A stretch of DNA of 64,000 nt from Clostridia bacterium (lineage in GTDB: Bacteria > Bacillota > Clostridia > Oscillospirales > Acutalibacteraceae): positions 62,001-126,000 of the forward strand of contig JAFXDV010000010.1 in assembly GCA_017521125.1 (NCBI GenBank), given 5' to 3'. Below, one piece after another: positions 61,703 through 62,899 of this stretch (the first letter of the stretch is position 1; every line of letters begins with the position of its first letter). The notes beneath the pieces were generated by a model. It was not told where the DNA came from. It saw only the letters and a program-made list of their open reading frames with translations, and did no database searches. The position numbers were made by a program, and so were the translations under genes.

Positions 61703-61732
61703 AAACCCTTGAGAATTTTCTCAAGGGTTTTC
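61703..61732. terminator. Terminator of pnp, shared with convergent small gene
   Basis: AAACCCTTGAGAA and TTCTCAAGGGTTT pair perfectly. The hairpin overlaps the stop region of the convergent gene at 61721. The same hairpin recurs at 62447-62477. Confidence 0.88.
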
Positions 61733-61891
61733 TATCTTTCGCAATTGAGTTTCTTTCATTTCTTCTAACTTTTTTTGACCGATATCCACATAAATGCAGT
61801 GGGCGCACGAGCCTGTTATATCTAAAGCGATTTCCTTTAAAACACATTGGTCGTTTCTTTGGTAGACACAGAAAATATTTTCACAAAACAT
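61721..61891 (-). CDS. Small cysteine-rich protein, unknown function
   Basis: The 56-residue protein starts at the ATG at 61891 after AAGGGTGA. Five Cys residues lie in FCENIFC, QC and SCAHC, compatible with a zinc or metal site; the rest is charged helix. It resembles short Cys-rich proteins (DUF1540-like) of Clostridia but I cannot name the family securely. Confidence 0.6.
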   Translation of the reverse strand: MFCENIFCVYQRNDQCVLKEIALDITGSCAHCIYVDIGQKKLEEMKETQLRKIENP

Positions 61892-62446: not shown

Positions 62447-62477
62447 AAAACCCTTGAGAATTTTCTCAAGGGTTTTG
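62447..62477 (+). terminator. Terminator after the PspC gene
   Basis: AAAACCCTTGAGAA and TTCTCAAGGGTTTT pair perfectly; the hairpin is a copy of that after pnp. Confidence 0.88.
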
Positions 62478-62526: not shown

Positions 62527-62748
62527 TTAATGACAAGTTCTTTTTAGTTCGTATTTGTTAAATTGTATTATTTCTGCTTTTTTGGCATAGGTCTTATTAG
62601 GAAAAAGGGCTTTTAAGATTAAACGCTTAATTCCTTTGAAGAGTTTGCGCTCAAAACGAGCCCACTTGTCCTCCGCAAAAAGTCCGTATATAATGATAGC
62701 AGCTACTAAAATTTCTATAACTGTTTGAATAAAAAATCTAAGTTCCAT
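62527..62748 (-). CDS. LexA-controlled small membrane protein (SOS-induced)
   Basis: The 73-residue protein has one N-terminal membrane segment (about residues 7-24, FIQTVIEILVAAIIIYGLF) and a strongly basic cytoplasmic or surface tail (KWARFERKLFKGIKRLILKAL). I recognise no family. AGGAGG precedes the ATG. The promoter is a perfect consensus followed directly by a LexA box, so the protein should be made only after DNA damage. By analogy with SOS-induced membrane proteins such as YneA or TisB it may block division or lower membrane potential; this is inference. Confidence 0.7.
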   Translation of the reverse strand: MELRFFIQTVIEILVAAIIIYGLFAEDKWARFERKLFKGIKRLILKALFPNKTYAKKAEIIQFNKYELKRTCH

Positions 62749-62763
62749 TGTTTTTCCTCCTAT

Positions 62764-62816
62764 CGAACAAATGTTCGGTACGTTTTTATTATAGCGTATT
62801 CTTTCTATTTTGTCAA
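62764..62816 (-). promoter_or_regulatory. Consensus promoter with LexA box
   Basis: On the minus strand TTGACA (62816-62811) and TATAAT (62793-62788) are exactly 17 bases apart. CGAACATTTGTTCG, a perfect match to the Gram-positive LexA consensus, lies at 62777-62764, beginning about four bases after the expected transcription start. Confidence 0.88.
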
Positions 62817-62899
62817 GGCTTTTTTAACATTTTTTGCCTTACAAGTTAATTATATTAAGTTTGGTGTCCCAATATTCGTACTTTACTCAAAAAATTGCA

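Follow-up and report, generated by a model that had tools for sequence, protein, structure and literature searches.

A conserved small membrane protein of Clostridia, almost certainly under LexA control, as a candidate inhibitor of cell division

Background

The Gram-positive proteins YneA, SosA, DivS and ChiZ are small, SOS-induced division inhibitors that span the membrane once (PMC6851548); YneA binds FtsW through its transmembrane (TM) segment (PMC13396833). In Caulobacter, division is inhibited by SidA, which is LexA-controlled, and the WYL activator DriD turns on the 71-residue protein DidA (PMC4211646). For the gut Clostridia, a large and mostly uncultured group, no SOS checkpoint is described in the literature searched.

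Here a gene for a 73-residue membrane protein, located within a 64-kb stretch of DNA from a Clostridia bacterium (termed here the window), is examined together with its homologues. An earlier reading of the sequence (termed here the original prediction) had proposed that this gene is SOS-controlled and that its product is a division inhibitor, a membrane-active peptide or a membrane-associated repair factor.

Results and discussion

Architecture of the locus

The gene and its control elements lie on the minus strand of the window. A promoter that matches the consensus at 12 of 12 positions (TTGACA-N17-TATAAT; 62788..62816, with TTGACA starting at 62816 and TATAAT ending at 62788) is followed, about 10 bases past the -10 hexamer and ahead of the ribosome-binding site, by the LexA box CGAACATTTGTTCG (62764..62777), which covers the expected transcription start. 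This box fits CGAACN4GTTCG, the criterion for the Gram-positive LexA regulon, and is the sole zero-mismatch LexA-box match in the window. The ribosome-binding site AGGAGG (62756..62761) stands 7 bases ahead of the ATG at 62748, with which the gene begins (62527..62748, the stop codon ending at 62527). The perfect promoter, the perfect box, AGGAGG and the 73-residue gene of the original prediction are thus all present. Past the stop codon lies a hairpin terminator (62447..62476), which is usable from both strands and is also 3' of a PspC gene; a near-identical hairpin occurs at 61708-61735, the stem being CCCTTGAGAA/TTCTCAAGGG.

The arrangement goes beyond chance, since it recurs in homologues (see below) and since the core GAACATTTGTTC occurs perfectly only three times in the whole genome (a 1.33-Mb assembly of 17 contigs, 93.65% complete): before the 73-residue gene, before a Y-family DNA polymerase with IMS and IMS_C domains, and in an apparent mobile element. 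The same genome has one lexA gene, whose product contains LexA_DNA_bind and Peptidase_S24 domains and which carries a one-mismatch box, GAATATTTGTTCG, directly before its start codon, in a promoter layout similar to that of the 73-residue gene; the region upstream of its recA is without such a box. In relatives, the same LexA boxes precede the homologue of the 73-residue gene and, in 3 of the 5 genomes inspected, a Y-family polymerase as well (named there by resemblance).

In the mobile element (L020, site 1500; contig C5:60320 of the window's own genome, G000) the box lies between TTGACA and TATAAT, and one of the genes downstream matches the mobilization protein NikA, so that this element, too, may answer to SOS. 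In two genomes with no detected member of the protein family, G082 (L182) and G063 (L188), a perfect GAACAAATGTTC or GAACATTTGTTC directly precedes genes of 451 and 446 residues, which resemble each other (with AKYD.ACTSSGVDR near the start) and, we presume, a radical SAM protein.

Conservation of the gene and its LexA box

Protein searches found the gene in 9 of 9 other congeneric genomes and in several other genera; within its bacterial family, a profile of 15 sequences detected it in 150 of 398 genomes and 55 of 135 genera, many genomes giving no detectable copy in that search. Two genomes have more than one match (three in G027, two in G301). A profile of 55 sequences detected no member outside this family among 396 genomes sampled from the order and, among 393 genomes of the class, a single match beyond the family, weak and partial (G960, in another family; E 7e-4), which is attributed to chance. 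Those relatives that have names are Clostridia, Oscillospiraceae and Ruminococcaceae bacteria, and several come from the ruminant gut. A phage origin was considered and set aside, there being no relative in viral contigs or phage records. The original prediction was to be given up if homologues lacked a conserved protein sequence; conservation was looked for and found, and dN falls below dS between congeners (e.g., 0.08 versus 0.51), which argues that the gene is real.

To no known family had the original prediction assigned the protein, and indeed the Pfam, NCBIfam, PHROG and PDB sequence libraries gave no match to it; Pfam CdaA_N and DUF4818 (E about 0.05) appeared below the cut-offs, for one member each, and were rejected. 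Gene neighbourhoods were similarly uninformative as to partners: none is kept across genera, the commonest being an Obg-like GTPase (7 of 52 loci). The yneA gene adjoins lexA; such an adjacency was not seen in any locus examined here.

The 66 distinct homologues were collected by protein similarity, so that boxes in the 150 bp upstream of them constitute independent evidence. Within these regions, GAACN4GTTC occurs perfectly in 44 and with one mismatch in 14 of the 66 (58 in total), as against 0.2% perfect (about 0.1 expected in 66) and 4.2% one-mismatch occurrences in first-order Markov sequences, the homologues being related sequences rather than 66 independent events. The 219 other genes of these loci, taken for comparison, gave 1 perfect and 4 one-mismatch boxes (5/219). 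A TTGAC-type promoter adjoins the box in 46 of the 58 box-bearing homologues, and 23 of the 66 have another box, imperfect in sequence (CGAACATTTGTnTTGAC), that overlaps the -35 hexamer. The LexA control proposed originally is well supported by this contrast between 58/66 and 5/219 and by the boxes at lexA and at the Y-family polymerase gene of the same genome. Judged from such sequence evidence, it is close to certain that the gene is real, conserved and LexA-controlled.

Predicted structure and comparison with described proteins

The protein has one TM helix (about residues 4-24), which holds a conserved glutamate, followed by an amphipathic, basic helix (26-48); E12, E26 and E33 are each conserved in at least 90% of members. 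An AlphaFold2 model built from 55 sequences (mean pLDDT 82.5) places helices at 2-24 and 26-48 and a low-confidence one at 53-72, in agreement with the single membrane segment first proposed. For the stretch 27-44 the hydrophobic moment is 0.54, and none of 1000 shuffles of helix 26-48 reached the observed value. Mean net charge is 0 before the TM helix and +7.5 after it, which bears out the basic character originally ascribed to the protein and from which the N-terminus is predicted to lie outside, and the C-terminus with the basic part inside. The original prediction is silent on this inside location and on the C-terminal tail of the family.

The C-terminal tail varies greatly among members in length and sequence. 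Of the proteins, 45 of 66 end in alanine and 40 of 66 in CA, VA or AA, as compared with 6.1% and 0.9%, respectively, of 442 long open frames used as a reference. This usual Cys/Val/Ala-Ala end is like the tmRNA tag of the window's own genome (DNNKVALAA), and such ends suggest that a ClpXP-like protease removes these proteins by way of the C-terminus. The protein of the window ends in TCH, however, and its congeners end otherwise, so that this reading does not hold for its own genus.

Like YneA of Bacillus subtilis, which is SOS-induced, small and has one TM segment (PMC13396833), the 73-residue protein would be a damage-induced single-pass protein; unlike YneA, which has a LysM domain outside the cell, it has neither LysM nor a model match, and its C-terminus is predicted inside. 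LysM matched none of the 55 members, and curated division-inhibitor family models gave no match. Judged by these tests, the protein falls outside the YneA/ChiZ family, although it may act in a similar way. SosA of Staphylococcus aureus, which is likened here by description rather than by sequence, comes close in size (77 versus 73 residues), in its one TM segment near the N-terminus, in its SOS induction and in having no LysM; its C-terminus, however, lies outside and is likely a CtpA substrate (PMC6851548). The predicted topology is therefore opposite to that of YneA and SosA, both of which require their outside parts in order to act. SidA and DidA, again likened by description and not by sequence, are small, single-TM and damage-induced, but constitute two genes with one control each, whereas here a single gene carries, besides its LexA box, a second dyad.

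A putative second operator

This dyad, which was noticed by inspecting upstream regions and is absent from the original prediction, is the inverted repeat AAAGTACGAATATTGGGACACC (GTMC-N8-GKAC; minus strand, 62863..62884, core 62866-62881). Its right half, together with a -10-like hexamer, forms GGGACA-N10-TATAAT (minus strand, 62849..62870), possibly a second promoter without a -35 hexamer. Within 300 bp upstream, GT[AC]C-N8-G[GT]AC occurs in 43 of 66 homologues against 0.3 expected; because the pattern was written after viewing these very sequences, a better guide is the comparison of spacings, those of 3-7 and 9-14 occurring in at most one homologue each. In most members an extended form, AAAGTMC-N8-GKACWTT, precedes the LexA box by about 80-105 bp. 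The window contains the dyad once, before the 73-residue gene, about one occurrence of the bare core being expected by chance per 64 kb (1.05-1.6); the Markov estimate from the dyad scan (0.0 per 100 kb) is disregarded. Among the loci scanned, intergenic dyads with matching flanks stand almost all before family members; most of these loci were fetched around the family, so the scan is not informative on whether other genes share the dyad. Eight further members were picked from it by their dyad, and each also carries a perfect LexA core.

One other intergenic dyad among the scanned loci of the window's own genome is ATAGTCCGTATTATGGGACATA (L211, 1487-1508; G000 contig C5, about 50.9 kb), with a -10-like TAGAAT; it stands 23 bases before a gene of 329 residues, the first 160 of which match PADLOC MTase_II (a type II methyltransferase), with no Pfam match. 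At recA, lexA and the polymerase no full dyad occurs. GGGACA-N10-TAnnAT precedes recA in G000 (L214, C6:25144-25165) and G013 (L215, C72:2270-2291) and is found in a similar context in G009 (L210, C10:129-150), a locus in which recA was not found. A link between this element and recA is treated as weak: the match falls within the open frame upstream or at its end, and constraint on that coding sequence may account for it; nor does the full dyad occur there.

From these patterns it can tentatively be proposed, though this is less likely than not, that the gene is doubly gated, with LexA joined by a regulator, so far undescribed, that acts on the dyad, such that a damage checkpoint protein would answer a second signal. 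That signal is possibly a LexA-independent damage pathway, as with the WYL activators PafBC and DriD elsewhere.

Division inhibition and its alternatives

By analogy with YneA, SosA and SidA, there is about an even chance that the protein is an SOS-induced membrane inhibitor of division, which is judged the likeliest of the three functions offered by the original prediction; against it stand the lack of a match to any known division-inhibitor family in the libraries searched, the predicted topology opposite to that of YneA and SosA, the position away from lexA in all loci examined and the many genomes of the bacterial family in which no copy was detected. In undamaged cells, LexA bound to the box over the transcription start would keep a very strong promoter shut; upon DNA damage, RecA filaments would promote LexA self-cleavage and the promoter would open. 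The small protein would then enter the membrane with its basic part inside, and its TM helix, through the conserved glutamate, would pack against a membrane protein of the divisome (FtsW being the best guess, by analogy), thereby holding up cell division until proteolysis removes it. A second factor on the upstream dyad may govern the timing of promoter activity.

It is unlikely, though worth weighing, that the protein instead regulates some other membrane protein during damage, such as a protease, transporter or cyclase. A single helix with a glutamate kept in the membrane occurs in small regulators of membrane enzymes, and the lineage-restricted distribution fits such a role; the lack of a neighbour conserved across genera, however, leaves no partner to name.

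A membrane-depolarising peptide that lowers the membrane potential and renders cells dormant, as with the SOS-controlled single-TM peptides TisB and DinQ of Escherichia coli, is distinctly improbable. The small size, basic character, single membrane helix, amphipathic second helix and strong LexA-locked promoter are all compatible with it, and DinQ is a precedent as an SOS-controlled single-TM peptide (PMC3567139). But the conserved E12, E26 and E33, together with the extended charged region inside, point to a specific partner. TisB and DinQ are toxic peptides with antisense RNAs; a promoter scan identified no antisense RNA gene at the 73-residue gene, although a plus-strand promoter-like match lies inside that gene, so that this point weighs little either way. 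Finally, although its strongly basic inside part could touch DNA, a role of the protein in tethering a repair protein or the nucleoid to the membrane is very improbable, given that no DNA-binding family matched and that the tail is so variable.

Conclusions

The putative second operator makes a further regulator directly searchable. If division inhibition is the true function, then a LexA-controlled protein conserved throughout a lineage, with its C-terminus predicted inside the cell, would represent a new way of enforcing the division checkpoint, with implications for how gut Clostridia behave under DNA-damaging drugs.
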